A DNA stretch of 47,354 bases from Holosporaceae bacterium (GTDB lineage Bacteria; Pseudomonadota; Alphaproteobacteria; UBA3830), in NCBI GenBank assembly GCA_031257475.1, contig JAIROP010000016.1, positions 1 through 47,354 of the forward strand, read 5' to 3'. Shown here piece after piece: positions 11,917 to 32,165 of the stretch. Below the pieces are notes generated by a model, which had not been told where the DNA came from, did not search any database, and saw only the letters and a list, made by a program, of their open reading frames with translations. Position 1 is the first letter of the stretch, and every line of letters begins with the position of its first letter. Made by a program: the position numbers and the translations under genes.

Positions 11917-12056
11917 ATTATTAAATCTTCAATAGTTTATATATCCCGCCGCTTTCATGACACAGCAAAATATCAAAAACCTACGAAAACATCCACCTTT
12001 ATTTATTCCATTGTCTTGAGTATTGTATACGAAAATTTCGTGTGGGGAATGGGGTA

Positions 12057-12596
12057 ATGTTTCAAGTGAGGATTCATGGCAGGGGAGGCCAGGGCGTAGT
12101 GACCGCAGCCGAGATGCTGTCGATAGCTGCTTTTTTGGAAAAGAAGTACTCTCAGGCATTTCCAAGCTTCGGATCGGAAAGGACTGGAGCTCCCGTAGTG
12201 GCTTTCTGTAGAATTTCGGATAGGGAAATTAGGTTGAGGGAACCTATTCTAGAGCCTAATGCATTGATAGTTCAAGATAAAACAGTGATAGAGTCCTCGC
12301 ATGCCCTGGATGGCATCCTGGAAGGTGGATACGTTCTGGTTAATTCGTCGATTCCCCTATCTTCCTGTCCCAAAAATGTTAGTCTGAGATGCATTGATGC
12401 TACTGGGATAGCCCTGGAATACGTAGGGCGCCCAATTCCCAATGCGGTTCTGCTGGGAGGCTTTGCAGCCCTGACCAGCGTCATCAAGATAGATTCTGTG
12501 ATTGACGCCATAAAAACCAAATTTTCCGGCGCCATCGCTGAGAAAAATATCAGCGCTGCCCAGGTTGCCTATGAAAAAATTTCGGGGGAGAACTAG
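12057..12596 (+). CDS. porC: 2-oxoacid:ferredoxin oxidoreductase, gamma subunit (PorC/VorC-like)
   Basis: Gamma subunit of a CoA-dependent 2-oxoacid:ferredoxin oxidoreductase, which with the alpha and beta subunits decarboxylates pyruvate or a related 2-oxoacid to acyl-CoA and reduces ferredoxin. Signature motifs are the N-terminal VRIHGRGGQGVVTAAEML and SFGSERTGAPVVAFCRIS. An ATG at 12057 is preferred over an in-frame GTG at 12042 because homologues begin directly with (F)QVRIHGRGGQG. The alpha gene follows after 3 bases. It is the first gene of a four-gene operon divergent from ffh. Whether the substrate is pyruvate or a branched-chain oxoacid cannot be decided by eye. Confidence 0.9.
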   Translation: MFQVRIHGRGGQGVVTAAEMLSIAAFLEKKYSQAFPSFGSERTGAPVVAFCRISDREIRLREPILEPNALIVQDKTVIESSHALDGILEGGYVLVNSSIPLSSCPKNVSLRCIDATGIALEYVGRPIPNAVLLGGFAALTSVIKIDSVIDAIKTKFSGAIAEKNISAAQVAYEKISGEN

Positions 12597-12599
12597 TTA

Positions 12600-13799
12600 A
12601 TGTTCCATCAGTTGGAAGGATCTCAGGCCATAGCTCGGGCTGTGGCGTTATGTCGACCTGGGGTCATATGCGCCTATCCAATTACTCCTCAGACCCATAT
12701 AGTCGAAGGAGTGGGTGAACTGGTGCGAGACGGTCACCTAGAACATTGTGAGTTTATAAATGTGGAGTCTGAGATGGCGGCACTGAGCGTGGCAATTGGA
12801 TCCCAGGCTGCAGGGGTTCGTAGCTACACGGCCACCTCTAGCCAGGGATTGCTTCACATGATCGAAGCCGTATATAACGCGTCAGGTCTGGAGCTTCCGC
12901 TGGTGATGACACTTGGCAATCGGGCGATAGGTGCTCCAATAAATATATGGAATGATCATTCCGATGCGATGTCTGTGAGGGATACTGGCTGGATTATGCT
13001 CTTCGCTGAAACTAATCAGGAAGCCGTTGATCTTCATCTTCAGGCTTTCCTAATCGCGGAAAAAGTTAGCTGCCCTGTCATGGTCTGCGTGGATGGTTTC
13101 ATTCTAACCCACGCCTATGAAAGAGTGGATATTCCATCCCAGGAGGAAGTGGATGAGTTTTTGCCTCCATACACTCCACGCGTCAGTCTAGATGTTGATG
13201 ATCCAGTTGCCATTGGAGCCATGGTTTCTCCGGATTATTTTTTTGAGGTGCGCTATCTTGCACACAGAAGGCAGATGGATTCACTGGAGATCATATGCTG
13301 TGTTGCTGAATCATTTTGGAAAAAATTCGGCAGAGATTCCGGTGGATTATTCCACGAATATCATACTGATGGCGCGGAAACCATCGTCGTTACCCTGGGA
13401 TCCGTGGCAGGCACTATCAAAGACGTTGTGGATGAGTTAAATGCCAGTGGAGAAAAATTTGGAGTTATCGCTTTGACCAGTTACAGACCATTTCCGGCTG
13501 ATTCTCTGAAAAATTCGCTCAAAAATGCTGCCAGGGCGATAGTCGTGGAAAAGGCGTTTGCCATCGGTATTGGCGGCATTTTGTTCCAGGAAATTGAACT
13601 TTTAATGAAAAATATCAATGTAAAGATTGTCTCGGTCGTCGCTGGCATCGGCGGCAGAAGTATCACCAAATCCATGCTCAGAGAATGTTTCCTGAATAAA
13701 AATTCCGGGGAAAATGTGTTTCTGGGGCTAAATGAAGATATTGTCGCAAAAGAATATGTTCCAATGAAGAGCCACAGCTGTGAAGGGAATGTCCCATGA
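12600..13799 (+). CDS. porA: 2-oxoacid:ferredoxin oxidoreductase, alpha subunit (PorA/VorA-like)
   Basis: Alpha subunit forming the active site together with the beta subunit. The family hallmark CAYPITPQTHIVEGVGELV is near residue 24, followed by FINVESEMAALSVAIGSQAA, TATSSQGLLHMIEAVYNASG and the PINIWNDHSDAMSVRDTGWI loop. The C-terminal domain II has VVTLGSVAGTIKDVVDEL and ends with the region that contacts the gamma subunit. At 399 residues it is the normal length of a separate alpha subunit of the four-subunit type, not the large fused homodimeric enzyme found in many bacteria. Its stop overlaps the next start as ATGA. Confidence 0.92.
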   Translation: MFHQLEGSQAIARAVALCRPGVICAYPITPQTHIVEGVGELVRDGHLEHCEFINVESEMAALSVAIGSQAAGVRSYTATSSQGLLHMIEAVYNASGLELPLVMTLGNRAIGAPINIWNDHSDAMSVRDTGWIMLFAETNQEAVDLHLQAFLIAEKVSCPVMVCVDGFILTHAYERVDIPSQEEVDEFLPPYTPRVSLDVDDPVAIGAMVSPDYFFEVRYLAHRRQMDSLEIICCVAESFWKKFGRDSGGLFHEYHTDGAETIVVTLGSVAGTIKDVVDELNASGEKFGVIALTSYRPFPADSLKNSLKNAARAIVVEKAFAIGIGGILFQEIELLMKNINVKIVSVVAGIGGRSITKSMLRECFLNKNSGENVFLGLNEDIVAKEYVPMKSHSCEGNVP

Positions 13800-14761
13800 G
13801 TAATTTTCCCCTCGGAAATATCGGAGGAACTCCAACGGTTCAATCAGATTTTGCCAGACCAAATTCACTTACCGGCGGTCATAGGGGATGTCAGGGATGC
13901 GGAGAAGCTCTTGGAGCTCGCTGTGCCATCGATGCTGCGCACCAAACGACTGGAGGGAAAATCCTGGTGGTAAACGCCACTGGATGTCTTGAGGTTTTTT
14001 CCTGCTGTTTTCCGGAAAATTCCTGGAGTGTTCCGTGGTTACATTCTCTGTTCGGCAACGCGCCAGCAGTGGCTACTGGAGTTGCAGCGGCGCTTCGCAG
14101 TCGTGGGCAAGATAGTATCCGTGTCATCGCCCAAGGGGGAGACGGCGCCACCTACGATATCGGCATGGGATGTCTATCCGGAATGTTCGACCGCAACGAT
14201 GATGTTTTGTATATTTGCTATGATAATCAGGCCTACATGAACACCGGTGTACAGAGATCTGGAGCGACGCCGCCTCTTGCCAGAACTGCCACCACCCTTC
14301 CCAATAAATCCTATCTGGGAAGTGATCCGCAGACTGGCAAAAACCTTCCGGAAATAGCCATGGCCCATGGAATTCCATACGTGGCCACAGCAAGCATAGG
14401 AAATATTCGGGATCTGGAGCAAAAGGTGTCGCGGGCAATAAATATTCGCGGATCTAGGTATATCCAGATCCATGTGCCCTGCCCGCTTGGCTGGGGATAT
14501 CCAACCGCTGAGACCATAAGGATCGCTCGTTTGGCTGTCCAATGCGGATTATACCCACTGTTTGAAGGAGAATATGGAAAATTAGTCGGCTCGACTCCGG
14601 TGGAAGAACCCATTCCCGTGGAAAGTTATTTGAGACCCCAGAGAAGGTTTGCACATTTGTTTGGAAAAAATGTTTCGGCGAACGCCGTGGGCGTTTTGCA
14701 GAATATTGCCAATGGCAACATGGAAAAATACAGACTGAACTGGGAGATTCTGGATGCCTAA
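13796..14761 (+). CDS. porB: 2-oxoacid:ferredoxin oxidoreductase, beta subunit (PorB/VorB-like)
   Basis: Thiamine-diphosphate and [4Fe-4S] binding subunit. The N-terminal GCQGCGEALGARC provides the CxxC of the cluster, and NATGCLEVFS adds the next cysteine. The ThDP motif is GGDGATYDIGMGCLSGMFDR followed by NQAYMNTGVQRSGATPP, the Mg/ThDP-binding part of the family. The C-terminal section has IQIHVPCPLGWGYPTAE with the last cluster cysteine. The start overlaps the alpha-subunit stop by four bases and its 3' end overlaps the next gene by eight, so the complex is made from one message. There is no stand-alone delta (ferredoxin) subunit; the next gene supplies that domain. Confidence 0.93.
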   Translation: MSNFPLGNIGGTPTVQSDFARPNSLTGGHRGCQGCGEALGARCAIDAAHQTTGGKILVVNATGCLEVFSCCFPENSWSVPWLHSLFGNAPAVATGVAAALRSRGQDSIRVIAQGGDGATYDIGMGCLSGMFDRNDDVLYICYDNQAYMNTGVQRSGATPPLARTATTLPNKSYLGSDPQTGKNLPEIAMAHGIPYVATASIGNIRDLEQKVSRAINIRGSRYIQIHVPCPLGWGYPTAETIRIARLAVQCGLYPLFEGEYGKLVGSTPVEEPIPVESYLRPQRRFAHLFGKNVSANAVGVLQNIANGNMEKYRLNWEILDA

Positions 14762-16370
14762 ACCGTTTGCCACGGTCCTAGAAACTGCGACGAGTCTTGG
14801 GAATAATACTGGATCCTGGAGAACCATGCGTCCAGAGTACGTAAATGAACTACCACCCTGCAATGCCACCTGTCCCGCCGGCGAGAACGTACAGCTGTGG
14901 CTATCTCTGGCCATGGCTGGGAAATTTCGAGAAGCCTGGGAGATAATAATGCGAGATAATCCGTTTCCAGCGATCATGGGCCGCGTCTGTTATCATTCCT
15001 GTGAAAAGACTTGCAATCGTGGACTGTTTGATGGGGCAGTCAACATCAATATGATTGAAAAATCCATTGGTGACATCGCTCTGGACAGTGGATGGATTCT
15101 TCCAAGGGTAACTTCCAGCAGTGGGAAAAAGGTCTGTGTTGTAGGAGGGGGCCCTGGGGGACTGGCTGCCGCATATTTTTTAGCGAAACTTGGACACCAT
15201 ATAACCGTCTATGAAGCTCATGCTAATCCCGGAGGAATGATGCGCTACGGCGTTCCCAGATATAGATTGCCGAGCAAAATCATTGACGCCGAAGTGAAAA
15301 GAATAAAGGATCTTGGGGTGAAGATCGTTTGTAATAAAAAGATTTCACATCTGAAAGATATTATCAATGATTTCGACGCTGTCTACATATCCATCGGGGC
15401 CCAGGTTGCGTCCAAGAGCGATACTGTTATCAAAAAAGGCTCCTGCGTAATTGATGCGATGGACCTATTCCAAAAACTGGAGGATAATCCAGCTGACCTT
15501 GCTCATTTCGGAAAAAAGGTCTTCGTATATGGCGGAGGAAATACAGCGATAGACGCTGCGAGAACTGCCCTACGACTCGGTGCGGAAAGTGTGAAAATAA
15601 TCTATCGGCGTACAATAAACAACATGCCCGCCCATGAAACGGAAATCAGCGATGCATTGATGGAGGGAATCGAAATTCTTTGCCTCCGTACCATCAACAC
15701 CGTGGACGGAGATCAGATTCTGCTTGATAAGATGAATTATGATGAGGAGTTCGGTATCCTATCCAAAACCGGAGAAACAGAAGTTTGGCAGGTGGATAAT
15801 ATAATTTTTGCCGTTGGTCAGACGCTGGATACAACTTTTTTCGATGGTATTTCTGATATTCTGATCTCCGAAAATGGAGCCATCGAGGTCGATAGAAACA
15901 TGATGACCGGAGCCACTGGAGTATTTGCCGGCGGAGATATCGTACCCGGTAAACGTTCTGTCACGAATGCCGTCGGGCATGCTAAAAAGGCGGCCAAAGG
16001 CATAGATGAATATCTAGGTGGCGCTTCAGAGGTTCCTATAGTGAAGAATGCTGTGGCCCATTTCAAAAAACTAAACACCATCTATTTTAAAAAGGACAAG
16101 CGGACGAACATCCTACGGCCACTCAATCTATCCTTCGAAGAGATTTTACCATCCTACACAAACGACGAAATCAGTCGGGAAGCTTCCCGCTGTTTTTCCT
16201 GCGGCAATTGCTTCCACTGCGATAATTGTTACGGGCACTGTCCCGACAATGCAATCCGCAAACAGCAAAATGGCTCATTGACTGTTAACTATGACCACTG
16301 CAAAGGTTGTGGCATATGCGCTGCGGAATGTCCTTGCGGCGCCATCCGCATGGTATCGGAAGAGAAGTAG
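14754..16370 (+). CDS. GltD-like FAD/NAD(P) oxidoreductase fused to a C-terminal 2[4Fe-4S] ferredoxin domain
   Basis: Likely shuttles electrons between the reduced ferredoxin site of the Por complex and NAD(P). The N-terminal part has the [4Fe-4S] cysteines of the glutamate synthase small chain family (PPCNATCPAGENVQLWL; CYHSCEKTCNRGLFDG). The FAD-binding site is VCVVGGGPGGLAAAYFLAKL, with GGMMRYGVPRYRLP after it. The NAD(P) site is VFVYGGGNTAIDAARTALRL. A second FAD contact is near GVFAGGDIV. The last 65 residues form a ferredoxin (CFSCGNCFHCDNCYGHCP and CKGCGICAAECPCGAI). No gltB large subunit is nearby, so glutamate synthesis is not implied. At 538 residues it exceeds GltD by roughly the ferredoxin domain. 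It is the last gene of the Por operon and ends 19 bases before the convergent tamB. Confidence 0.9.
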   Translation: MPKPFATVLETATSLGNNTGSWRTMRPEYVNELPPCNATCPAGENVQLWLSLAMAGKFREAWEIIMRDNPFPAIMGRVCYHSCEKTCNRGLFDGAVNINMIEKSIGDIALDSGWILPRVTSSSGKKVCVVGGGPGGLAAAYFLAKLGHHITVYEAHANPGGMMRYGVPRYRLPSKIIDAEVKRIKDLGVKIVCNKKISHLKDIINDFDAVYISIGAQVASKSDTVIKKGSCVIDAMDLFQKLEDNPADLAHFGKKVFVYGGGNTAIDAARTALRLGAESVKIIYRRTINNMPAHETEISDALMEGIEILCLRTINTVDGDQILLDKMNYDEEFGILSKTGETEVWQVDNIIFAVGQTLDTTFFDGISDILISENGAIEVDRNMMTGATGVFAGGDIVPGKRSVTNAVGHAKKAAKGIDEYLGGASEVPIVKNAVAHFKKLNTIYFKKDKRTNILRPLNLSFEEILPSYTNDEISREASRCFSCGNCFHCDNCYGHCPDNAIRKQQNGSLTVNYDHCKGCGICAAECPCGAIRMVSEEK

Positions 16371-16389: not shown

Positions 16390-19300
16390 TTAGTACCGGT
16401 ATTTCCAACTGATACCGGCCTCTCCCTTGGTATTCGTCTTAAGGGATATGCTTGGAGTGAGGGAAAAATCCACATCAAATGAGGATTCGTTGCCTTTTTT
16501 GTTCACACTTATGTAGACATTATCGTGAATGTATTTGCCAGCGCTCATATTCATATTGTTCTGTGTCGAGGAACTTTGAGTATTGGAATATAGGGAGTTC
16601 GATTTATTTTCCGAACCTGCAAAGGATATACTGTCGACCACGCCAATCTTTTGAAAAGTATTTAACACGGAAAAAATGTAGCCTCCTCTATTCAGACTTG
16701 CAACGGCGTGAGCCAACTCTGCCGCCTCTCCCAGGGTTAGATACTTGGATTCCTTGCCGAACAGCATCTTCGACAGAATTATATCCTGGGTGTAGCTGGG
16801 ATTTGAGTATAGATTAAAGGATACACCACTAGTTGGGCTGTTATTTATGTCCAGCCCGACACTAACATCTCCGAAATTCCGCTGACACTTGAAGGCAGCT
16901 TCCGGGTTGTAGGGAAACTCACGGAGAAAGGATACCTTGCCATGAACCACTTTCATGCGTCGTCCAAACAAATCCACTCTGCCGCTGGACAGTAGTAAGT
17001 CTCCCACGAGTGTTCCTCTATCCTGATGGGTCAATAGCGACATATCCCCCAAAAGATGCATTTCAAAAATGTTCCCAACAAATTTAATATTCTGACAATG
17101 CATGGAAATTTCGTATTGGAAAAAATCTTTCCTTTCATCGTTTGACTTTTTTTTGCTGAAGTAGGGATCATTTTCAATTTTAATGTTAAGCCACTCATCC
17201 TCGGTTGTGAAATCCTCTATTTCGCAACGAGGAACAGTGACTTTTCCTCGGAGAATCATGTTGTTAATTGGACCACTCATAGTGCCTTCTCCCAGTATAT
17301 CAACCTTTAGGCCATCGGAATATAGCAGGGAGAAATCATCAAACTTCAGCTGAAGATTGGTGTTTATATTGGGAATAATTCCATCGAAAAATACACGACC
17401 ATTTCCCCGAACAATGGCTTTTTTCTTTTTATGATCAATGAATTCTCCTTTTAATACCTCCAGGCTGTTTCCACTTCCGATAAGAGAAATATCTCCATTG
17501 CACAGCAGGACAGATCCAATGGCAATGTAGGCGTTCTGCATGGCTCCCTTTCCTGAAATAACAGGATTGTCGAAGGTGCCATCCAGGTGGAAATCACAAA
17601 GGACATGGCCCCGCAGATCCGCGTTGTCTGGCAATTCCAACATCCTTTCCAGATGTGTATCAATCTTGACGAGACAATCTAAAAGATTATTTTTTATTTT
17701 CAATATTCTCATATCATTTTTAATTAGAATTGGTAGAAATGCTGTAATGTCTATGAAATCTTTGCCATTTTTTTGATTAGCACTGATTTTAGTTCCATTT
17801 CTATCTATTTTTACATGTACCTGCAAATTTCGGCCATGGGCAGTCAGATTCGCAAGAGACAGATCTCCATCTCCAACAAAAATATCATTTTCAGATTTCA
17901 GAGAAAGATTTCCATTTAAACGACAGGAGAAAAAGCGATGATTAAATAACAACAAAAAATTATCCAGAGGAAATGAAGAAAAATTACAAACTATTTTCCT
18001 ATTATCGCAGATTATTTTGGCTTCTCCGGGTTTTTTGCCGTCAAGAATTTCACAGCGGACCTGATAATCAGTATTGCCAATGTCCACGACACATTGACTA
18101 ACTTTTATTTTTCCTTTTGGAAGAGTTATCTGCCCTTCATCGAGCGATATTTTTTGTAAAGATTTATCGATTATTCCAGATGCTTTCAGCCGACCGTTCC
18201 CGTTTACCAGAGCGGTTAATTTCAACTGTCCGTTTGAACTTTTTGCATCAATATTTTTCAGACGTATGCCGAGTATTTTTGCTTTTTTAATTGTCGTAGA
18301 AAAATTATCTCCATCAACAGAAAAGTTCAGAGATTTAATCTCTTGATTGTTAAAAATCAACTGTGGAAAATTCCCACAGGCGACAATTTTTTTGTTTTTA
18401 TATTCAAGATTGCCGGAACCAGCTCCAGCTAGAGGAAGAATTTTCTGAAAAAAATCCAATTGGCTAAAATTAAATTCACAGCGCAGATCGTCCAAATTGG
18501 AAAACGGTTTCAGAGATCTCAAAAAACCTTTTGGACTTTTGAGTTCTAGTTTTTTCACCAAAAAGGAACCAGCCATGGCAATGGTTGATGCAATTTCGAA
18601 ACCTCGACCGAATAAAATGATGTTGGCGTGTTTATTTTCATCCACATCACAGTGAAAATTAGAAAAATCAAAACCGGCAACAGATACCCAGTCAATATTC
18701 CCATCAATGTGGGCTCTGCCTGATTCGTAGTGGCAGACGGCATCTCCGATATGTGCATCATCTCTTTTGAAAATTACATTGGCTCGTCCTTTCACTTCAT
18801 CGTCAAAATCACAAATTATACCTAGATTGGCCTGTACTCTCCTAAAATTTTTCACAACCATCTCAGATAGGGAATGGAAATACGGCAATCGTTCCAGAAT
18901 GACTTTAGTTTCAATAAATGCTTCTCTTTTGGTCAGGTACAAATGTCCAGAGCAGGTAATCTCTGTTGGTTGAGCCTTTGAATCGTCGGTGAAATTTTTG
19001 TAGATAAGCGTTGCCGTGGATATTTCTATGTCAAATAGAAAATTCTGATAATTACCGCTGGATAGGACACTAATCCGGTCATTTTGAAAGCCAAAAGAAT
19101 ATTTTGCAACCTGTCTTTCAGGATATTTTATTTTTAGACTTCCTCGACAGGGAAAGTTGTCCTGAACATATTCGACATCGCACCCCATGCATTCTTCATT
19201 TTTCCAATTCAGTAACACTCCCAAGCAATGTTTATCTCCAGATGAAAGACTGATTTTTGCCGAGCAAGAATCTCTATCCTTCCGTGAGTTGTAAATAAAA

Positions 19301-19728
19301 TCATCCAGAAGATAGGTTTTATCTCCCCTCCGAATAATTCCGCTCTGCAGAGACAAATCCTTCAAACAAAATCTAACATTTCGCATCCATGGGATGATGG
19401 CTTTGAGCTTGCTCCCATCGAAACCTCCGCTGGTCGGCACTTTGGCGGAAAGCTTACTGATGCGTATTGTTGCCCTATCCCAACATTCATCAAGGATCAA
19501 ATCCTGAAGCTGCAATTCCATGCCATCGAGCAGACGAATGGATATTTCACGAATTTGATTTCCATGCAATCCCTTGATTTTAACTGTTACTTCAGGCAGA
19601 AGATTGGAAATTCCGTTCAGCAATAAACTCCGCCCGAAATCCGTTGCCAACATTCCAACGGAAACTGCAGCAATTGTCATTACCACATATATTTTTCTGA
19701 AAAACCTTCCGCGGATGTGAGTTTTCAA
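16390..19728 (-). CDS. tamB: TamB-like translocation/assembly module protein (DUF490 domain)
   Basis: Large envelope-spanning protein that works with TamA in outer-membrane assembly and, by current models of AsmA-like proteins, lipid transfer. One N-terminal membrane helix (VVMTIAAVSVGMLATDFG) is followed by about 1000 residues of repetitive beta-strand-rich sequence. The C-terminal TamB domain begins near residue 790 and contains VGDLLLSSGRVDLFGRRMKV and ILSKMLFGKESKYLTLGEAA. The end ISWKYRY has the aromatic terminus of the family. Length (1112) is normal. The start overlaps the tamA stop by four bases. An inverted repeat (CCGGTAT / ATACCGG, about 16395-16417) lies in its last codons, at the convergence with the Por operon; it lacks a T-run, so a terminator role is uncertain. 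Confidence 0.9.
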   Translation of the reverse strand: MKTHIRGRFFRKIYVVMTIAAVSVGMLATDFGRSLLLNGISNLLPEVTVKIKGLHGNQIREISIRLLDGMELQLQDLILDECWDRATIRISKLSAKVPTSGGFDGSKLKAIIPWMRNVRFCLKDLSLQSGIIRRGDKTYLLDDFIYNSRKDRDSCSAKISLSSGDKHCLGVLLNWKNEECMGCDVEYVQDNFPCRGSLKIKYPERQVAKYSFGFQNDRISVLSSGNYQNFLFDIEISTATLIYKNFTDDSKAQPTEITCSGHLYLTKREAFIETKVILERLPYFHSLSEMVVKNFRRVQANLGIICDFDDEVKGRANVIFKRDDAHIGDAVCHYESGRAHIDGNIDWVSVAGFDFSNFHCDVDENKHANIILFGRGFEIASTIAMAGSFLVKKLELKSPKGFLRSLKPFSNLDDLRCEFNFSQLDFFQKILPLAGAGSGNLEYKNKKIVACGNFPQLIFNNQEIKSLNFSVDGDNFSTTIKKAKILGIRLKNIDAKSSNGQLKLTALVNGNGRLKASGIIDKSLQKISLDEGQITLPKGKIKVSQCVVDIGNTDYQVRCEILDGKKPGEAKIICDNRKIVCNFSSFPLDNFLLLFNHRFFSCRLNGNLSLKSENDIFVGDGDLSLANLTAHGRNLQVHVKIDRNGTKISANQKNGKDFIDITAFLPILIKNDMRILKIKNNLLDCLVKIDTHLERMLELPDNADLRGHVLCDFHLDGTFDNPVISGKGAMQNAYIAIGSVLLCNGDISLIGSGNSLEVLKGEFIDHKKKKAIVRGNGRVFFDGIIPNINTNLQLKFDDFSLLYSDGLKVDILGEGTMSGPINNMILRGKVTVPRCEIEDFTTEDEWLNIKIENDPYFSKKKSNDERKDFFQYEISMHCQNIKFVGNIFEMHLLGDMSLLTHQDRGTLVGDLLLSSGRVDLFGRRMKVVHGKVSFLREFPYNPEAAFKCQRNFGDVSVGLDINNSPTSGVSFNLYSNPSYTQDIILSKMLFGKESKYLTLGEAAELAHAVASLNRGGYIFSVLNTFQKIGVVDSISFAGSENKSNSLYSNTQSSSTQNNMNMSAGKYIHDNVYISVNKKGNESSFDVDFSLTPSISLKTNTKGEAGISWKYRY

Positions 19729-21632
19729 AATGCCTGTCCCAAACTCATTACAAATTGTACTCTGGAGTCCACTCCTCTTCTCCTTTTTATTGGAAAGGCC
19801 AAATCAGCCCTTATGGGACCGATGCTTGTAAAATACCTAACGCCGATTCCAACGGCATAAAACCAGCGTTTTTTTTCCGTCTGTAAATAGGCATGGCGAG
19901 AGCGATTTTGGAAAACCCTGGCACCATCGAAGAACAAAACACCGCCGAAATTTTCGGTAAATCGTCTTCGAATTTCTGAATTAAACTCCAATGAGGCTTT
20001 CCCTCCCATCGGAGTCTCTTCGCCGATGACCATCTCTGTGGCCATTTGATGTGCATATCCTCTTATGGAATTCATACCTCCAGCATAAATTCTTTGATCT
20101 ACAGGAATTACATCAATCTTTTGCCCAAAAACAGACCTTCTGATCAAATTAAAAGCCATAACCGTTCGTTTCAAATCATCCAGAGGATGATTATATGAAC
20201 AGCTGATATCGAGCGCTTTCAATGTGCCAATGGCGGAATGTTTAAAAAAGATTTCTGAAAATTTTGAAATGATACGATATCCGGATGTGGGATTTAGCCA
20301 ATCGTCAGTACGATCAACAAGGAGTTCCAGTGGAATCGAAAAAGTATCATACTTTTTCCCCATGTCGGTGTTGCGAAAAAATACTTCACAGGCGTCAACA
20401 TAGTCGGTCTCCACATTTCCCCCCATTCTAACAACACAATAATTGGCAACCGGGTAGGAAAATCTAGCAGATATTTGATCGTTTTTCCTAAAGAAGACAT
20501 TGGTCAGCTCCTGCCGACGGGCAATACTGTAGTCTGCCGTATTATTTTTCAAAAACACATCCGGCTGGAACAGCGCTGCTTCAAAGGCATAGTCTGTTCT
20601 CTTCTCCTTCACCCTAAGTGGAGTGCCCTCGACTGTGAACCGCAGCTTTTCACCTCCACCAAATGCGTTATTGTTGACCCAGGCGAATCTGGCAATGATG
20701 GATTTCAACTTTTTTTGCGTCTGTGATTTTTTGTCAAAATTCATACTGTTGGCGCTGGAGTAAAGAAGGCCAACATCTATGGTGTGCTTTTTATCCTCTT
20801 TCACCTCAATACTCATTGGAATTTGATCTCCACTGATGGCTTTTTCCTGTGGGGTTATTTTCGTCTCCGAGAAAATTTGACTACTCATCAGAACCTCTGT
20901 GGTGGATTCCACCTTGGATATGTCGAAAAGATCTCCATTTTGCCATGTAATTCTATTTTTAATAAAATCCTCGGTGATTCCCGGAAAAGCTTTTATCTCT
21001 ACGCTCGCAAAAAAAACCTTTCTGCCGGGATTAATTGTTAAATGAAGGGTTGCCTCGTTTGTCTCATGATTTAAAACGACTCGTTTTTCTATAATTTCTG
21101 GCTTAAAAAATCCATTTCTTTGTAAATCCTTAACGGCAAACCCTATAAAAGACTTGATTTCCTCGATGGACGCCTTAAATCTACGCAGATTTTTCTGTAA
21201 AAACTCTTCGTTACGTTGATTAAATTCATTATCCTGATTCATGTAGTGTACATCTAATTTCAGATTAAATTTATTCCCAAGATCCACATGGATTTTTACT
21301 TTGACTGGGTTGCGGTCAATGATGTCATAGCGAACACTGGCGTTATAGAATCCTAGAATATGTGCTTTCTTCTGGATAATTTCAACATCGTCACTGAGTC
21401 GTCCTTTCAGTGCTTTCATGCTGGTTACAGTTTTTTGCTGCTGGGAAAAGGTTCGCAATTCTTTAATTGCAACCATGATTTGTGATTCTGAAATCATGTC
21501 AGAAATGGTTTCCACGATATTTTGATCTTTCTTTAAAATTAATTCCACCCGGTAGTGAAAATCATGAAAATCCGGTTCATAGGCGAAAATATCCACCACC
21601 AGAAAAAAGAACGGTAAAATTCTTAACACCAT
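19725..21632 (-). CDS. tamA: TamA-like Omp85 family outer membrane protein
   Basis: Outer-membrane partner of TamB. A short signal peptide (MVLRILPFFFLVVDIFA) is followed by POTRA domains (about residues 20-250; for example FFASVEIKAFPGITEDFIKN and TWQNGDLFDISKVE). A 16-strand barrel follows, with the Omp85 surface-antigen features RIYAGGMNSIRGYAHQM and VFFDGARVFQ. The C-terminal strands are YAVGIGVRYFTSIGPIRADL and QFVMSLGQAF, ending in the expected aromatic Phe. Length (635) is slightly above E. coli TamA. It overlaps tgt upstream by ten bases and tamB downstream by four. BamA is the alternative, but BamA is longer with five POTRAs, and the adjacent tamB favours TamA. Confidence 0.92.
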   Translation of the reverse strand: MVLRILPFFFLVVDIFAYEPDFHDFHYRVELILKKDQNIVETISDMISESQIMVAIKELRTFSQQQKTVTSMKALKGRLSDDVEIIQKKAHILGFYNASVRYDIIDRNPVKVKIHVDLGNKFNLKLDVHYMNQDNEFNQRNEEFLQKNLRRFKASIEEIKSFIGFAVKDLQRNGFFKPEIIEKRVVLNHETNEATLHLTINPGRKVFFASVEIKAFPGITEDFIKNRITWQNGDLFDISKVESTTEVLMSSQIFSETKITPQEKAISGDQIPMSIEVKEDKKHTIDVGLLYSSANSMNFDKKSQTQKKLKSIIARFAWVNNNAFGGGEKLRFTVEGTPLRVKEKRTDYAFEAALFQPDVFLKNNTADYSIARRQELTNVFFRKNDQISARFSYPVANYCVVRMGGNVETDYVDACEVFFRNTDMGKKYDTFSIPLELLVDRTDDWLNPTSGYRIISKFSEIFFKHSAIGTLKALDISCSYNHPLDDLKRTVMAFNLIRRSVFGQKIDVIPVDQRIYAGGMNSIRGYAHQMATEMVIGEETPMGGKASLEFNSEIRRRFTENFGGVLFFDGARVFQNRSRHAYLQTEKKRWFYAVGIGVRYFTSIGPIRADLAFPIKRRRGVDSRVQFVMSLGQAF

Positions 21633-25054: not shown

Positions 25055-26353
25055 CTATTCCCCAAAAACCTTTCCTATATAAACAATTTTTATTTTTTCG
25101 AAAAGCCTCCTTGCCACCTGCAGAAACAATTCGTCTGGCAGCTGAGTAAATGGTAATTGATGGTTTTTTATTTGTTCCTCGATATTTCTTATACTGATAA
25201 ATCCCTTTTGGGATGTTTCCGAAAAATATTCTCTGGTTCTTTTTAGATGCTTTATGTTCAACTTGTATTGATAGGAAGAAATTTTCTCTTCCACATACTT
25301 TTTATACTCAGCCAAATCGTTTTCTCTAATATAAACGGAAAAATAAAAAATGCTAGACAAACTTCGATGCAAGATCTTGGCTTCCACTGCGTAGGCCAGC
25401 TGTTTTTTCCTAAGTCCCTCACAAAAATCTCCTGTCGTATCATCAAATAATGTTGTAATTATTATTTGTAATGCAGCCTTTTCTCTCGCATTTAGTTTAT
25501 CAAGCCTCATTCCACACATCACTCCCAGGACATTGCCAAGATGTTCTCTTGGAATAATCAAATCCTTTTGCTCAGCGACGGGGTATTTTGTGAGATCTTC
25601 TGGAAAAAGATTTGGCATATCCTCTCCCACAGGAAGCTGGGAAAACAACGCTTTCAAAAAACTTTCTGTTTCAAAAACTGACAAATCACCACAAAATAAA
25701 ACGGTCAATTTCTTTTTGGTAAAATTTTCCCGTACGAATTGGTACACGTCGCTCTCAGTCACACTGGACAACGCCTCAGCAGTCCCTGTGCGATTCAGTC
25801 CATAGTTATGATTGGGGTACAGTAACTGCAGCAATTTATCGAACATTAACTGTTCTGGATCAGCTGTTTTCGGATCTAATATTGTCGGATACTTATTCTT
25901 CACAAATTCCAAATCGTTTCGCGTGAATTTCGGCTGAGTAAACACCGGAGCCAAAAAATTTAGTGCATCCACAGCTTTATCCTTCAATACGTAAAACGAC
26001 AGAGACAGATGATCTCCCAGGGCATGAATTGATAATTCCTCGATTCCCTGGTTTTTCAATTTCTCTGTGGTCTCCTCCGGAGATAGCTCTCCGATTTTTC
26101 TACATAGCAACTCCGCAACCACAGCCGAAATCCCGTGCTTTTCAGCTGGGTTATGAAATACACCGGCATATTTAAAACGACATTTTACGTACACCACGTT
26201 GCCGTTTTTTATCCGTACCAGATTTGTTTTTATCCCAAAACTGTTCGAAATCTCTGTAATTTTTAGGAAGGATTTTTCTTTACTGAAAAATATTGGCGTG
26301 GACACAAGGATAATCAGTATCAAAGCAATCGTAATTTTTCTTGATAGCCTCAT
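25055..26353 (-). CDS. M16 peptidase-like protein, non-catalytic (copy 4 in transcription order)
   Basis: Related to zinc-dependent M16 peptidases of the pitrilysin/processing peptidase type but lacking zinc ligands. Where HxxEH is expected, it reads GISAVVAELLC. An N-terminal hydrophobic helix (ITIALILIILVSTPIFF) anchors or exports it. The two-domain M16 architecture is intact: the N-terminal half has DALNFLAPVFTQPKFTRNDL and LYPNHNYG, and the C-terminal half has CEGLRKKQLAYAVEAKIL. In that last motif the conserved Tyr of the R/Y substrate-binding pair is kept but the Arg position is changed. It overlaps the preceding gene by four bases. It is probably a pseudo-protease partner, derived from the same ancestor as the 27579-28895 gene. 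Confidence 0.75.
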   Translation of the reverse strand: MRLSRKITIALILIILVSTPIFFSKEKSFLKITEISNSFGIKTNLVRIKNGNVVYVKCRFKYAGVFHNPAEKHGISAVVAELLCRKIGELSPEETTEKLKNQGIEELSIHALGDHLSLSFYVLKDKAVDALNFLAPVFTQPKFTRNDLEFVKNKYPTILDPKTADPEQLMFDKLLQLLYPNHNYGLNRTGTAEALSSVTESDVYQFVRENFTKKKLTVLFCGDLSVFETESFLKALFSQLPVGEDMPNLFPEDLTKYPVAEQKDLIIPREHLGNVLGVMCGMRLDKLNAREKAALQIIITTLFDDTTGDFCEGLRKKQLAYAVEAKILHRSLSSIFYFSVYIRENDLAEYKKYVEEKISSYQYKLNIKHLKRTREYFSETSQKGFISIRNIEEQIKNHQLPFTQLPDELFLQVARRLFEKIKIVYIGKVFGE

Positions 26354-27582
26354 CTATCCATCCTATTCTGAACATCGATTTTTAAAATCATGCTGTTTTT
26401 CAAAATCTTCTCTCCTAATGAATTAAATTGCTTGGAACTGTTTATTTCTACTTCCGTTTCTATTCTGTTGAGCAAATTATATTTTATCTTTTGATATATC
26501 AACCACCAGTCTGTGTACATGATCTGCTGAGAATTTCTTTTCCACTGTTGGCCAGTTTCGAAAAATTCCGAATTCATCTCCTGTCTACTGACTCGATCAA
26601 TGAGTATTTCCCATTTTTGCTGTAGCTCATCCATGGAAACGTCGGATTTGGGACGAAGTATCACCTGATATATACAGTCTCCGTTGGAAATAACATTTAG
26701 GCTAGCATAGGAGGCAACGACTGGATATGCTTTTTGGAGGTATCTGAATACCTGAAGGTCCAAGAGATCAAAAAACGCGTCTGCCTGGGGCAGATCGTCC
26801 CAGGGTATCTTGTAAAGGTACAACAATGTTCTTCCAACATACTTGCTGCGAATTTTTATTTCTCTGGTTATTGTGTTGGTACAGAGGTCTCCTAACGGAG
26901 ACTCACCAGAAGACCAGCTGCACACAGTTGATTGTAACACCTTGATAAGATTTTTATAGCCGATGGCACCCACAACAACCAGAGATATGCGGCTTGTTTT
27001 GTAATGCTGATCAAAATATTCTCTCAAATCCTTTTCAGATATTGTTGAAAATATTTTTTCATTGAATATGCCGTCAACATTGGCCGTCTTGTATCCTATG
27101 TTTGCCGTAATTTCATTGGAAATGGCGTCCAGGAAACAGGAATGTATCAGTTTTTTCTTGGTAATTATGTGTTTCTTCAATATGTCCAAATTACGGGGTG
27201 CAAACTCATTTCCCTCAATGATTTGGAAAAAATTCTTAAGATGTTTTGGATTCATGATGGCAAAAATTTCAGTATAACTTCCATCAACATGGACTGTGCA
27301 GGATATTCCAAGTTCCTGCAGCTGAAGATGGGTGATTGGACTAATGAAATTTTCTTCAATTAAATCGGTTATTCCCTGCTTGCTTCGTGGAGTATTGAAA
27401 TATCCTGTGTGCAAAATCATTCCCACAATCACCACGGGCATGCGAAAATTTTCGTGCAAAACCATATTTACACCGTTACTTAGTACACATTTTTTCACCC
27501 TAGTTTCCGCCGATTTTCTGCTTGGTTCTCCAAAGGATATTTGGAAAAACAACAGCAGGACGATTACCAAAGCTCTTATCAT
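26350..27582 (-). CDS. M16 peptidase-like protein with degraded zinc motif (copy 3)
   Basis: M16 fold with a signal peptide (ALVIVLLLFFQISFGEPS) followed by VLSNGVNMVLHENFRMPVV, the standard first strand of the family. The zinc motif position reads QGITDLIEENF, in which HxxEH has become DxxEE, so both His ligands are lost. A family-typical downstream strand (ISLVVVGAIGYKNLIKVL) remains. The C-terminal half shows no clear R/Y pair. At 410 residues it is slightly short. It overlaps both neighbours by four bases. It is probably a degenerate duplicate of the catalytic copy at 28882-30246. An alternative zinc-free role such as a scaffold or chaperone is possible. Confidence 0.75.
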   Translation of the reverse strand: MIRALVIVLLLFFQISFGEPSRKSAETRVKKCVLSNGVNMVLHENFRMPVVIVGMILHTGYFNTPRSKQGITDLIEENFISPITHLQLQELGISCTVHVDGSYTEIFAIMNPKHLKNFFQIIEGNEFAPRNLDILKKHIITKKKLIHSCFLDAISNEITANIGYKTANVDGIFNEKIFSTISEKDLREYFDQHYKTSRISLVVVGAIGYKNLIKVLQSTVCSWSSGESPLGDLCTNTITREIKIRSKYVGRTLLYLYKIPWDDLPQADAFFDLLDLQVFRYLQKAYPVVASYASLNVISNGDCIYQVILRPKSDVSMDELQQKWEILIDRVSRQEMNSEFFETGQQWKRNSQQIMYTDWWLIYQKIKYNLLNRIETEVEINSSKQFNSLGEKILKNSMILKIDVQNRMDR

Positions 27583-28895
27583 TCCTTAGCTCCTCCCATG
27601 ACGATAAAACACATATCCTCATTCAGCTCCTTGGCAAGGGCATTGACTTCGGGCAATTTCACCCGATCTATCTGAGCAATCGTATCTTCTAGAATCGTTG
27701 GACCAAATCCCTGTCGTTTTTTATGAAAGAAAAAATTACATAGGGACTCGGAATTTCTTAGAGAAATTAGCAAGCTCCCCTTCAGGTTTCTTTTGGCAAA
27801 TATTAACTCCTCTTCGGTTATGCCATTTTCCCTAAGATCCCTAATAATGTCTTTCAGCAGCTCAATGACTCTTTGCACATTGGAATTATCCGTTTGCAAA
27901 AATCCAAGTAAATAACTGCTATGCACGTAATCAACAGGATAAACCGTTCCACTGTATATTAATCCTCTCTGCGTTCGAAGTTCGTGGAGAATTCTTCCCT
28001 TAAAAACGTTCCCCTTTCCCAGAATTTTATGGAGAATCTCTGCAATCCATCTGGACTTAGATCGTGGAGGTTCCGACTTTAGAGCAAAAAACATGGAACT
28101 CTGCGGTCCTTCCACATAATATCGTTTTACCTGGGGTGTCAGCAATGGACCAACATCCTTCACTGAATCAATCGTTGGAGTTCCAGATTTTACTCTGGCA
28201 AACACTTTATCCACCAGATCTCGAGCTTCATTTTCTGTAATATTTCCGCATACACACACGTCTGCATCTGTAATTGACAAGCTCTCTTTATATTTCCGTA
28301 AATCCTCTATGGTCAGCGCCATGAAATCCTGGGGAGATCCAAATTGTCCATTCCCATATGGATGCAATTTGAAAATTATTGCCGGAATGATTGAGAAAAA
28401 AGCTGTTTCAAAAGAGTTTGCTGCATAATTAAACATTGAATAAACAATACCATTTTGAATAATTTTCACCTTATCTTCTTCAAAATTTGGCTGAGTAATC
28501 AATGTATTAAAAAGCGGGATTGCTTTGTTTAGAACTATTTTAGGAGCGCAAAGGGCGAAACGAAGATAATCAAATTCTGCTCTACAAGACATTGTGGAGG
28601 ATATTTGGGAACATTTCTGAGCAAACTTACTTTTTGAATACTTTCCGGAGCCACAAAAAATAGCGTGGGAAAAAAACTCTGGAATACCCGTCTTTCCCTT
28701 TTCTTGATGTGCCGTTCCGACATTTTTAAAACTCACCATCACCTGCACCAGCGGAGTATCCTCGTCTTCCACCAACCAAAATTTTATGCCACGATTGGAA
28801 ACCAGGACTTTTATTTTGTAGCAACGCACTTCTCCGAACAACAGAACCAGACCCAAACCCAATGGAAGAATTATCCTCAATTTATTCACGATCAT
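27579..28895 (-). CDS. M16 peptidase-like protein, R/Y partner subunit (copy 2)
   Basis: M16 protein with a signal peptide (LRIILPLGLGLVLLFGEVRC). The zinc motif is missing (GIPEFFSHAIF in place of GxxHxxEH). The C-terminal domain keeps ILHELRTQRGLIYSGTVYP, the Arg and Tyr that in heterodimeric bacterial M16 enzymes bind the substrate next to the zinc site on the partner. SPQDFMALTIEDLRKYKESL and ADVCVCGNITENEARDLVD match the family core. It starts inside the last codons of the catalytic gene (14-base overlap), so the two probably form a heterodimer. Confidence 0.85.
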   Translation of the reverse strand: MIVNKLRIILPLGLGLVLLFGEVRCYKIKVLVSNRGIKFWLVEDEDTPLVQVMVSFKNVGTAHQEKGKTGIPEFFSHAIFCGSGKYSKSKFAQKCSQISSTMSCRAEFDYLRFALCAPKIVLNKAIPLFNTLITQPNFEEDKVKIIQNGIVYSMFNYAANSFETAFFSIIPAIIFKLHPYGNGQFGSPQDFMALTIEDLRKYKESLSITDADVCVCGNITENEARDLVDKVFARVKSGTPTIDSVKDVGPLLTPQVKRYYVEGPQSSMFFALKSEPPRSKSRWIAEILHKILGKGNVFKGRILHELRTQRGLIYSGTVYPVDYVHSSYLLGFLQTDNSNVQRVIELLKDIIRDLRENGITEEELIFAKRNLKGSLLISLRNSESLCNFFFHKKRQGFGPTILEDTIAQIDRVKLPEVNALAKELNEDMCFIVMGGAKE

Positions 28896-30246
28896 ACCCC
28901 TTTGGTAGAGTCCGTGCGATTGCGTGTGGCTCCGTGGAAAATATCTCCCTTAGCAGGTCATTGCATTCTTCAACCGAAAGATCCTGCACAATATTATCAA
29001 TGGATTGAATCTCTTCCAAAGAATATCCTCGTGTGAGCAGCCATCCAATGTAATTTGACATACTCTCGATATCGTCATCTCTGTGGGCCAAAGAAAGCCG
29101 ATATTGCTGTTTTGCTATGTCCAAATCTTCCCTAGTGATCCCGACCTGTAGCAATCTCTGTCTGAGATATTTCCAGGCTGCTTCAGCTTCGTTGAGATGG
29201 TCAATGGAGTGAGCCGTAATATGGACACAGACAATATCCGAGGCGAATTCCCCACGTACATATTGAAAAGAAACGCCAGAAGCGCAATTTAAAATATCTT
29301 TCAATGTCTTCTTTATGAAGAACTCCGATTGATTTAGGATCCCAATTAACATGTAGAGGGAAATTGTCTTTCGCAGACCACCCTTGATCATGGATGGGGC
29401 GTGATATATCTCCTCCATCGCTGCTCCAAAACCATTTTTTGGGGATCCATAGTGTATTTCTTTTTGACAATTCGACTGGTGTCCTCGAGTTCCTAGGGGA
29501 AATTGTGGAATATCCTTCGGGGGATTTATTCCAAAATGTCTTTCCAAACATTCCTTTAGGGATGCTAGATTAAAATCTCCGGATATGACTATTACGGCAT
29601 TATTGGGCGCAAACCATTTGCCATGAAAATCCAGCAGATCCCTCGGGGAAATTGCTTCTATTTCATGTTTCCATCCCAGGATTGCAATTCCTCCATTTCT
29701 TCGATTGAAGATAGTAGCCAGGACCGCCTCCGTCTGCGCTCCATCCGGATCATTATCTACGTTTTGGCCCCGCTCTTCTTGAATGACACGCTTTTCTGCC
29801 ATAAAAACTTCATCGTCAATTTGCATACCTGTCTGGCGGTTCGCTTCGTGTAAGCAGACAGTTTCTATACATTCTTTTGGAAATATTTCATAAAAACAGA
29901 TCGTTTTTCTGGATGTGAAAGCATTTTTCTGGGCTCCATTATCTTCTAAAAAATGATCAAACGTCATTTTGTCGGTGTTAAACGCCATATGTTCCAGGAA
30001 ATGTGCCACTCCGGACCTGGATATGGCGTCGCAAATTGATCCACATCTGTACCAGATGGAAAAGAACAGTATTGGCGCCGTTTTCTTCTCTATGCACACA
30101 ACCATAAGCCCATTTTTCAGCACAAAGCTCCCTATTTTATATTTGGCAAACCCACTTGAATGGTACAAAATGAAAAAAATGGCGACGCAGCTCCTAAAAA
30201 ACTGCGAAAAAGTTTTATTCCCCCGAATTCTTTTTGCGTAAATCAC
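28882..30246 (-). CDS. M16 family zinc metallopeptidase, catalytic subunit (copy 1)
   Basis: Zinc peptidase of the processing-peptidase type, probably periplasmic. Signal-like segment CVAIFFILYHSSGFA. Catalytic motif GVAHFLEHMAFNT gives His82, Glu85 and His86; the third zinc ligand is the Glu in EKRVIQEERG (about residue 158), at the expected spacing. Further M16 landmarks are LEDNGAQKNAFTSRKTICFY, YYxxWF-like DFHGKWFAPNNAVIVISGDF, and GTRGHQ. A GTG at 30246 with GGAGG nine bases upstream is the likely start, overlapping the end of the popZ-like gene by 32 bases. It is first of four consecutive M16 genes and the only one with an intact zinc site. Confidence 0.93.
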   Translation of the reverse strand: MIYAKRIRGNKTFSQFFRSCVAIFFILYHSSGFAKYKIGSFVLKNGLMVVCIEKKTAPILFFSIWYRCGSICDAISRSGVAHFLEHMAFNTDKMTFDHFLEDNGAQKNAFTSRKTICFYEIFPKECIETVCLHEANRQTGMQIDDEVFMAEKRVIQEERGQNVDNDPDGAQTEAVLATIFNRRNGGIAILGWKHEIEAISPRDLLDFHGKWFAPNNAVIVISGDFNLASLKECLERHFGINPPKDIPQFPLGTRGHQSNCQKEIHYGSPKNGFGAAMEEIYHAPSMIKGGLRKTISLYMLIGILNQSEFFIKKTLKDILNCASGVSFQYVRGEFASDIVCVHITAHSIDHLNEAEAAWKYLRQRLLQVGITREDLDIAKQQYRLSLAHRDDDIESMSNYIGWLLTRGYSLEEIQSIDNIVQDLSVEECNDLLREIFSTEPHAIARTLPKGYDRE

Positions 30247-30703
30247 AAATTATTTCCTCCATCACTTTTTTGGCAATATCCGGAAGATTACTGTTTATCC
30301 ATTTATTAATGAGGGGAATTGATATCTCTTTGAGTAGCTCTAGAGCAATCTCGCTTTTGGGGACTTTGTTGTTTTCCGCCGCCCGTTTACAAATTTCACT
30401 AACATCTTGCGAATCTACTATGATATAGGGCCCTTGCTGGCGAGAATTGTCCTCTTTCAGCTGCAGAGGGTTGCTCCCGGAACCATCATCGTAGTCCACA
30501 TTCTCTTGGACCAGCTTTAAAAACGCTCCCATATCTCTCTTTTCCACCTCTGGAGTTTTCACTTTCACAATACTTCCGTCCGGCTTTATCATGTCCGTTA
30601 GATCCAAGACAGGCGGTTCTTCGCCAACTACCATCTGCTTTATCGAAGACAGCACGTCATCCAAGGACATTTCAGATGTTTTATCTGTCATTTTTTCGAC
30701 CAT
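30215..30703 (-). CDS. PopZ-like DUF2497 protein
   Basis: Alphaproteobacterial pole-organising protein family. The N-terminal region has the short conserved helix SLDDVLSSIKQMVVGEEPP, which in PopZ recruits clients. A variable acidic and proline-bearing linker follows. The C-terminal part has the oligomerisation helices ELLKEISIPLINKWINSNLP and DIAKKVMEEIICDLRKK. Length (162) fits PopZ. It is 4 bases after tolC, an order common in alphaproteobacteria (tolC-DUF2497-valS), except that valS is not next here. Expected role: forming a polar hub that anchors the chromosome origin and division regulators. Confidence 0.85.
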   Translation of the reverse strand: MVEKMTDKTSEMSLDDVLSSIKQMVVGEEPPVLDLTDMIKPDGSIVKVKTPEVEKRDMGAFLKLVQENVDYDDGSGSNPLQLKEDNSRQQGPYIIVDSQDVSEICKRAAENNKVPKSEIALELLKEISIPLINKWINSNLPDIAKKVMEEIICDLRKKNSGE

Positions 30704-30707
30704 CTCA

Positions 30708-32165
30708 CTAGACTTTGCTCTGTCTTAATACAAATTGTAGATCAAGAACGCCAGACAGCATAAGGATTTGCATAGCAGCAAGTACCCGCTGCCGTTTCGC
30801 TTCTGCCAGGCCTATTCTAGCATCCAACAGCTGGTTCTCTTGGACAAGGATATCGGTATTGGATTTCACTCCCATATCGTTTTCCGCGGAGCCCCCCCTG
30901 GAAGCAACCTCTGCGCTTTCTACAGCTGCTTTACTGGCTTTTATCATGGCGGTAGCAGCCACATACTTGTTCCAGTTTACGATACATTCTTTTTTCACCT
31001 CAAGTCTGGTGTCTTCTGCAGTAAACTGGGCCTTCTGCGCCTGTTGACTGGCTATCGCGATCGCGGAATAGGTGTTTCCTGACTGAGGATTGTTTGAAAA
31101 AATCGGTATGGTTATACTCAGAGACGCATTGTAGTTATTCGAACGATTTTTACCCTGTTGTTGAAGATCCAGATAGTCCTCAGGCCTGCTCCAATTCCTG
31201 TTCAGCGACTTCCTTGTCTGCAACGACAAATCGCAGGAAGGGGCCAGCGCGCCCCTGGTCGCTTTCAAATTACTTATAGCAGCCCGCGCATCCTGATGTG
31301 TGGACAGAATACTCTGATTGTTGGCCATGGCAAGAGCAATCAATTTATCCAGGTCGTCCGGAAGTCCTGACTTCAACTCCGGTAGTTCTATATTTTCACT
31401 GGCCTTGCGGCAGGTTAATCTCTCTACTTCTGATTTAGCTGCAAAAAGATCTGTTTCCGCAGAAATTCTCTCATAGCGCGCCCTCTGACAGTTGGCAATA
31501 GCCTGCGCAACTTCCGTCGGTGTCCCAGCACCAGCGTCTAGGCTTGCCTGTTGTGAATCTGCGGTTTTTTTAAGATTTTCCTCCTTTTTTTTCAGAGCTA
31601 TCACTTTTTGTCCATTCATCCAAGTGCTTGTGTAGGCGTCCAGCACCCTAATAATCAGACGTTGCTCTTCAAATTTCAATTTGTGATAAGCTGCTGCTGA
31701 GGCACTTTCATTGCCTTTCATTCTATTCCATGTTGCTCCACCATTGAACAGATTTTGCGTGATGGTTAGACCCATCACCGTATTTGTGCTTTTTGTCGCA
31801 CTTTTGTTGTCTTTCTCGATAGATCCGGTTTTTTCCCTTCTATCCATTCGATCTCTCTCAAGGGATAAACTCCCGCGGACATCGGGTAAAAATGCCATCT
31901 TGGATTGCCCAAGTGATTCATCTGCGATCTTTTTGTCCGTTTGACTTGCAAACCATCCCTTGTTATTTTCACAAGCAGCCGTAATGGCTTCTTCGAAAGT
32001 CGACACTTCCTTACCTTTTGATGAAACCAAATTTGGACTTCCAGGAACTTTTTTATGTTTTTTGCTCGGAACAACATTTTCCGAAGCTTCCGCTTTGTCT
32101 GGAATTGCACAGATATCTCCACACATCCCACATAGCATCAAAAACGCCAAGCAAGTCCTTATCAT
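30708..32165 (-). CDS. tolC: TolC family outer membrane efflux/secretion protein
   Basis: Outer-membrane channel that exits type I secretion or multidrug pumps. Signal peptide CLAFLMLCGMCGDICA is followed by a charged linker. The OEP repeats are visible: FEEAITAACENNKGWFASQ, FLPDVRGSLSLERDR, GLTITQNLFNGGATWNRMKG, and after a mirrored half, SLSITIPIFSNNPQSGNTYS. The C-terminal coiled helices include VQENQLLDARIGLAEAKRQ. Length 485 is normal. It is preceded by gltX (27-base gap) and followed by the popZ-like gene. No inner-membrane pump gene is adjacent, so its exporter partner must be elsewhere. Confidence 0.93.
   Translation of the reverse strand: MIRTCLAFLMLCGMCGDICAIPDKAEASENVVPSKKHKKVPGSPNLVSSKGKEVSTFEEAITAACENNKGWFASQTDKKIADESLGQSKMAFLPDVRGSLSLERDRMDRREKTGSIEKDNKSATKSTNTVMGLTITQNLFNGGATWNRMKGNESASAAAYHKLKFEEQRLIIRVLDAYTSTWMNGQKVIALKKKEENLKKTADSQQASLDAGAGTPTEVAQAIANCQRARYERISAETDLFAAKSEVERLTCRKASENIELPELKSGLPDDLDKLIALAMANNQSILSTHQDARAAISNLKATRGALAPSCDLSLQTRKSLNRNWSRPEDYLDLQQQGKNRSNNYNASLSITIPIFSNNPQSGNTYSAIAIASQQAQKAQFTAEDTRLEVKKECIVNWNKYVAATAMIKASKAAVESAEVASRGGSAENDMGVKSNTDILVQENQLLDARIGLAEAKRQRVLAAMQILMLSGVLDLQFVLRQSKV

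Follow-up and report, generated by a model that had tools for sequence, protein, structure and literature searches.

Why would a bacterium keep, directly behind an intact pair of M16 peptidase genes, a second pair of the same kind that carries no zinc site? This question is raised by a 47,354-nucleotide stretch of DNA from a Holosporaceae bacterium (contig JAIROP010000016.1 of assembly GCA_031257475.1; hereafter the window), in which a first-pass annotation, made from the letters alone, had described four consecutive M16 genes as one catalytic pair and an apparently degenerate copy of that pair. The genome is a 0.92 Mb assembly of 42 contigs, and the block sits on the one labeled C31. To answer the question, we combined analyses of motifs, subunit type, predicted structure, phylogeny, conservation and evolutionary rate for the four genes, which we call A, B, A' and B' in order of transcription.

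The genes are all encoded on the minus strand, from position 30246 to position 25055, and our check of the open reading frames agrees with the earlier description in their coordinates, strand, order and overlaps. Gene A (28882..30246) starts with GTG and encodes the catalytic M16B subunit, a protein of 454 amino acids with an N-terminal hydrophobic export segment. It overlaps by 14 bases (28882-28895) with gene B (27579..28895), which encodes the normal non-catalytic partner (438 amino acids). Gene B shares 4 bases (27579-27582) with gene A' (26350..27582), whose 410 amino acid product is a zinc-less M16 subunit leaning toward the A type, and a further 4 bases (26350-26353) are shared by A' and gene B' (25055..26353), which encodes a zinc-less B-type subunit of 432 amino acids with a signal-anchor-like N-terminal segment. 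Both M16 domains were found above the Pfam cut-off in A, B and B'; in A', the match was weak, with M16_C staying just below the cut-off (E = 1.4e-4; 22.2 bits vs. 23). A hydrophobic stretch opens all four proteins and is kept in nearly all relatives, suggesting that the four are likely exported to the periplasm. The sequence, read together with what is established for M16 proteins, also suggests that they are co-translated.

In the alignment, the zinc-motif positions read HFLEH in A (residues 82-86), EFFSH in B, DLIEE in A' (with D73, E76 and E77 at the HxxEH positions) and AVVAE in B', just as had been read from the unaligned sequence. Residues H82, E85, H86, E157 and E158 of A are invariant among the aligned family members, so that this subunit has both the HxxEH motif and the downstream glutamate of an active M16 peptidase. 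In B, the HxxEH motif is absent and R307 and Y314, which form the R/Y substrate clamp, are invariant, as in the zinc-less partner of an M16B heterodimer. We searched for HxxEH in every aligned A' and B' of the family and found it in none. The position of the catalytic glutamate in A' is mostly occupied by alanine or glycine among relatives, and the E that DLIEE shows there is thus accidental. As for B', its R315 aligns with the arginine of the R/Y motif, and the spacing from this arginine to the tyrosine is one residue shorter. Of 16 relatives, 14 retain the arginine and 10 the tyrosine, so the statement that the fourth gene keeps only the tyrosine was wrong. It had also been proposed that the block encodes three pseudo-protease subunits. 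While B, A' and B' do lack the zinc site, B is the ordinary non-catalytic half of the enzyme, and the novelty therefore lies in two extra dead subunits, not three.

The type of each zinc-less subunit was examined by profile and structure comparison. In profile-profile comparisons, A' scored 126 against A vs. 44 against B, and B' scored 158 against B vs. 54 against A. With other alphaproteobacterial pairs added, B' scored 286 against the B type vs. 120 against the A type, and the scores of A' (177 for the A type vs. 157 for the B type) showed a slight lean only; within the family alone, A' scored 153 for the A type vs. 53 for the B type. The PDB matches of an A' profile included the active chain 3amj_C and core 1/MPP-beta chains of mitochondria, but not the inactive chain 3amj_B. 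The best PDB sequence matches of A and B themselves were the active subunit (3amj_C/3ami_A) and the "inactive subunit" (3gwb and 3amj_B), respectively. The AlphaFold models of A' and B' (mean pLDDT of 84.1 and 87.6) show the two-domain M16 fold and align over the whole chain (382-385 residues) with solved M16B subunits, with VIA-align Z scores of 31.0 and 35.1, respectively, and both proteins are thus predicted to be complete two-domain M16 subunits. The top three structures for the A' model (5euf, 4nnz, and 3ami) are of the catalytic type, at Z scores of 30-31 tied with those of others, and the top two for the B' model (3gwb and 3amj_B) are of the inactive type, at Z scores of 34-35 with many entries tied. 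B' is firmly B-type. A' leans to the A type by profile and structure comparison, while the tree gives it no firm place. Motifs and typing together uphold the picture of a catalytic pair, A/B, with an A-type and a B-type gene behind it that both lack a zinc site.

In the phylogenetic tree, A, B, A' and B' each form one clade with a support of 100. B' falls in with B and the B genes of other Alphaproteobacteria (100/97), and the long branch of A' emerges between the two sides, A and B. We ran AU tests on a set of 43 rows. The arrangement of A and A' as sisters, with A' on its long branch, was marginally rejected (p-AU = 0.036), and that of B and B' as sisters gave a p-AU of 0.111. Neither the grouping of A' with A and other alphaproteobacterial A genes (p-AU = 0.119) nor that of A' with a single M16 gene linked to lspA (p-AU = 0.115) was rejected. 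The arrangement of A' and B' as sisters, that is, as copies of a single gene, was rejected (p-AU = 0.019), as was that of A and B' (p-AU = 1e-44). Of the sister pairs that the first-pass annotation had anticipated, genes two and four fall into one B-type clade and may be sisters, and genes one and three are marginally rejected as sisters. The second pair does match the first in kind, but the tree does not support a recent duplication of this very A-B pair, and tree and AU tests fix neither the date nor the exact source of the duplication.

The genome encodes six M16 genes, two of which have the HxxEH motif: gene A of the quartet and an MPP-like gene on contig C18 (L001:706-1983). The latter combines HFLEH and REKRGLAY in one chain, is present in 38 of the 41 family genomes and is probably an MPP-like housekeeping enzyme. 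The lspA-linked gene (L073:3293-4600, contig C33) is a single zinc-less M16 gene encoding 435 amino acids between lspA and pgi, and it occurs in 40 of the 41 family genomes, including most of those that lack the quartet. Other Alphaproteobacteria have a live pair at that spot, in the order ileS-lspA-M16-M16-pgi (complete in L059 and L061, partial in L064, L062, L065, and L057). In this family, therefore, a dead A-type gene seems to be all that is present at the ancestral pair locus, the live pair being elsewhere.

The named relatives that have B' are all Holosporaceae metagenome-assembled genomes, with sample codes that appear to resemble those of a termite gut survey. Genes B and A' are present in 34 of the 41 family genomes and A in 33, the thirty-fourth being cut by a contig end, and A, B and A' are all missing from the remaining family genomes. 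B' was found in 30 of the 34 genomes, plus one fragment at a contig end. Three genomes with A-B-A' yielded no B' (G014, G018, and G024; 80-92% complete assemblies); the gene lies on a different contig from the rest of the block in G013, and it stands alone at a contig end in G017. Since it is missing from three genomes and located elsewhere in G013, B' is separable from the block, with the absences being tentative because all named genomes are metagenome assemblies. A second A-B-A' set is present in one genome (G047, contig C69), either as a true second copy or as contamination. Searches beyond the family returned no strong match to B' in other genomes of the order, no strong match to A' or B' among 385 genomes sampled across the class, and no relatives of B' in viral contigs. 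Frameshifts in relatives had been named beforehand as the sign that the third and fourth genes are just decaying; neither frameshifts nor internal stops were found in the full-length copies of the family. Among close pairs, the dN/dS (NG86) values of A' (0.08-0.28) and B' (0.07-0.34) are near those of A and B. These values, well below 1, imply purifying selection on all four genes of a block that is kept in relatives.

The surroundings of the block are far more variable, with at least six different neighborhoods within the family. In the window, a small PopZ-like gene (30215..30703, minus strand; a weak match of 20.7 bits vs. a cut-off of 125) lies directly upstream of A with a 32-base overlap, and a gene for a TolC-family outer membrane protein (30708..32165, minus strand) follows further upstream as context only. 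Both adjoin the block in the window and in several congeners; as the PopZ-like gene stands next to the block in some members of the genus only, it is considered context and not part of the module. The other neighbors of the block include SpoU/Tim44, RecA, PgsA/Hsp20, H-pyrophosphatase/MutS, H-pyrophosphatase/BacA, and Xer recombinase/XseA. A functional link to TolC, PopZ or GltX as a general rule was rejected, since neighbors vary while the quartet persists: the conserved thing is the module, not its surroundings. Elsewhere in the window (16390-21632), TamB-like and Omp85/TamA-like genes adjoin each other, with tgt and a gene for a queuosine-precursor transporter behind them, and positions 12042-16370 encode subunits of the pyruvate:ferredoxin-oxidoreductase type and an Fe-S flavoprotein, a gene set that suggests anaerobic metabolism. 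The same four genes of 12042-16370 adjoin the quartet in G021 (L050).

Which subunit pairs with which was addressed mainly through covariation of evolutionary rates. Branch lengths were estimated gene by gene on a single fixed 23-genome tree, and rates were correlated pairwise with the contribution of the remaining genes taken out; two M16 genes located outside the quartet served as controls (fifteen gene pairs in all). Only two of these pairs stand out, A-B (partial correlation of 0.79, p = 5e-10) and A'-B' (0.71, p = 7e-8), and both persist when the longest branch is removed (0.77 and 0.62, respectively). An earlier four-gene run with 25 genomes gave an agreeing result, and no significant correlation was found between the quartet genes and the two control genes. 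The correlation is -0.18 for B-A', although these genes are adjacent, and -0.16 for A-B'; adjacency as the source of the covariation was rejected, as the neighbors B and A' show none. These results point to two separate heterodimers, A-B active and A'-B' dead, and shared relaxation of the two degenerate genes could partly underlie the covariation of A' with B'. The correlations of B-B' (0.35) and A-A' (0.29) are weak and lend thin support to an action of A'-B' on A-B.

Our preferred explanation, which we hold with moderate confidence, is that the A and B proteins assemble into an active M16B clam-shell heterodimer in the periplasm and that A' and B' form a zinc-less one kept for a non-proteolytic role, most likely accessory to A-B. 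In the active heterodimer, A would provide the zinc site and B the R/Y substrate clamp; the second would have the same fold and, having no zinc site, would be unable to hydrolyze peptides. Two forms of accessory role can be envisaged: A'-B' would either bind A-B as a stable partner dimer, the two making up a tetramer, or act on the substrates of A-B as a regulator or a peptide-binding cage. We infer heterodimer formation and the accessory role from sequence and established knowledge of M16 proteins. That the dead pair is kept intact across the family makes some task other than cutting very probable for A'-B', such as peptide holding or control of A-B. More tentatively, the quartet may form an M16 assembly of four different subunits, with the active clam-shell heterodimer docked to an obligately dead paralogous one that captures, feeds or protects peptides, as a bacterial counterpart of the split between MPP and core I/II; we consider this possible but doubtful.

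The main rival is that A' and B' are independent neofunctionalised proteins, such as periplasmic peptide-binding proteins or an envelope scaffold, which share the operon and never touch A-B. We consider this rather unlikely, since A' never occurs without A-B in the 34 genomes, the three genes are absent jointly, and the 4-base overlaps and gene order are kept despite varying neighborhoods; nevertheless, the covariation of A' and B' with each other and only weakly with A-B, together with the off-block position of B' in G013 and its absence from three genomes, would fit such independence. Mixed subunits, in which A would work with B' and/or A' with B as alternative catalytic and non-catalytic dimers with differing substrate ranges, could be accommodated by the fold common to all four proteins, the arginine that B' retains in most relatives and the weak covariation of B-B' and A-A', but the negative values for A-B' and B-A' contrast with those of the native pairs and make this arrangement improbable. 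Finally, that A' and B' are decaying pseudogenes of reduced symbiont genomes, in line with the small size of most of these genomes (about 0.7-1.5 Mb) and with A' being the fastest-evolving of the four (tree length of 15.3 vs. 9.8 for A), is very improbable, being contradicted by ORFs that are full-length and free of internal stops throughout the family, by dN/dS well below 1 and by a confident predicted fold.

Pseudo-proteases are usually a single dead subunit beside a live one, and the open-access papers searched contained no account of an M16 block of four genes that includes a dead pair. The Bacillus YmfF/YmfH (NCBIfam YfmF/YfmH) and AlbE/AlbF proteins resemble the quartet in being encoded by paired M16B genes, one of them catalytic, but to our knowledge no degenerate second pair accompanies pairs of these types. 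A and B gave weak hits to the NCBIfam models for YfmF/YfmH, far below the cut-offs (53.6 vs. 250 and 51.5 vs. 285 bits), and are not equivalogs of these proteins. A-B fits SPH2681/SPH2682 of Sphingomonas sp. A1, reportedly described as an M16B heterodimer by Maruyama et al. in 2011 (PDB 3AMJ), which carries HxxEH in one of its subunits and R/Y in the partner and whose active and inactive chains are matched by A and B. Unlike the quartet, it consists of one pair only, without a second zinc-less pair. SPH2681/SPH2682 forms a 2+2 tetramer, which is a precedent for a bacterial M16B tetramer (PMC12731061). The eukaryotic analogy is MPP vs. the inactive core I/II proteins of cytochrome bc1 (PMC11266112, PMC12731061). 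As in the quartet, an active M16B heterodimer (MPP alpha/beta) has a paralogous inactive or nearly inactive structural pair (core I/II), and the bc1 core 1 chains were matched by the model of A' as well as by its profile. Core I/II, however, belong to a eukaryotic respiratory complex, whereas the quartet is bacterial, encoded in one operon, likely periplasmic and without any observed connection to bc1. By this analogy, a bacterial parallel of MPP and the inactive core proteins would be the best reading of the quartet.

The retention of a whole dead heterodimer beside its live relative in a family with small genomes argues for a real non-catalytic job. The quartet thus offers a compact four-gene system for probing the function of a dead M16 clam shell, for which mitochondrial core proteins have otherwise been the main object of study, and it would allow the roles of core I/II and of the dead M16 half to be studied free of a respiratory complex.
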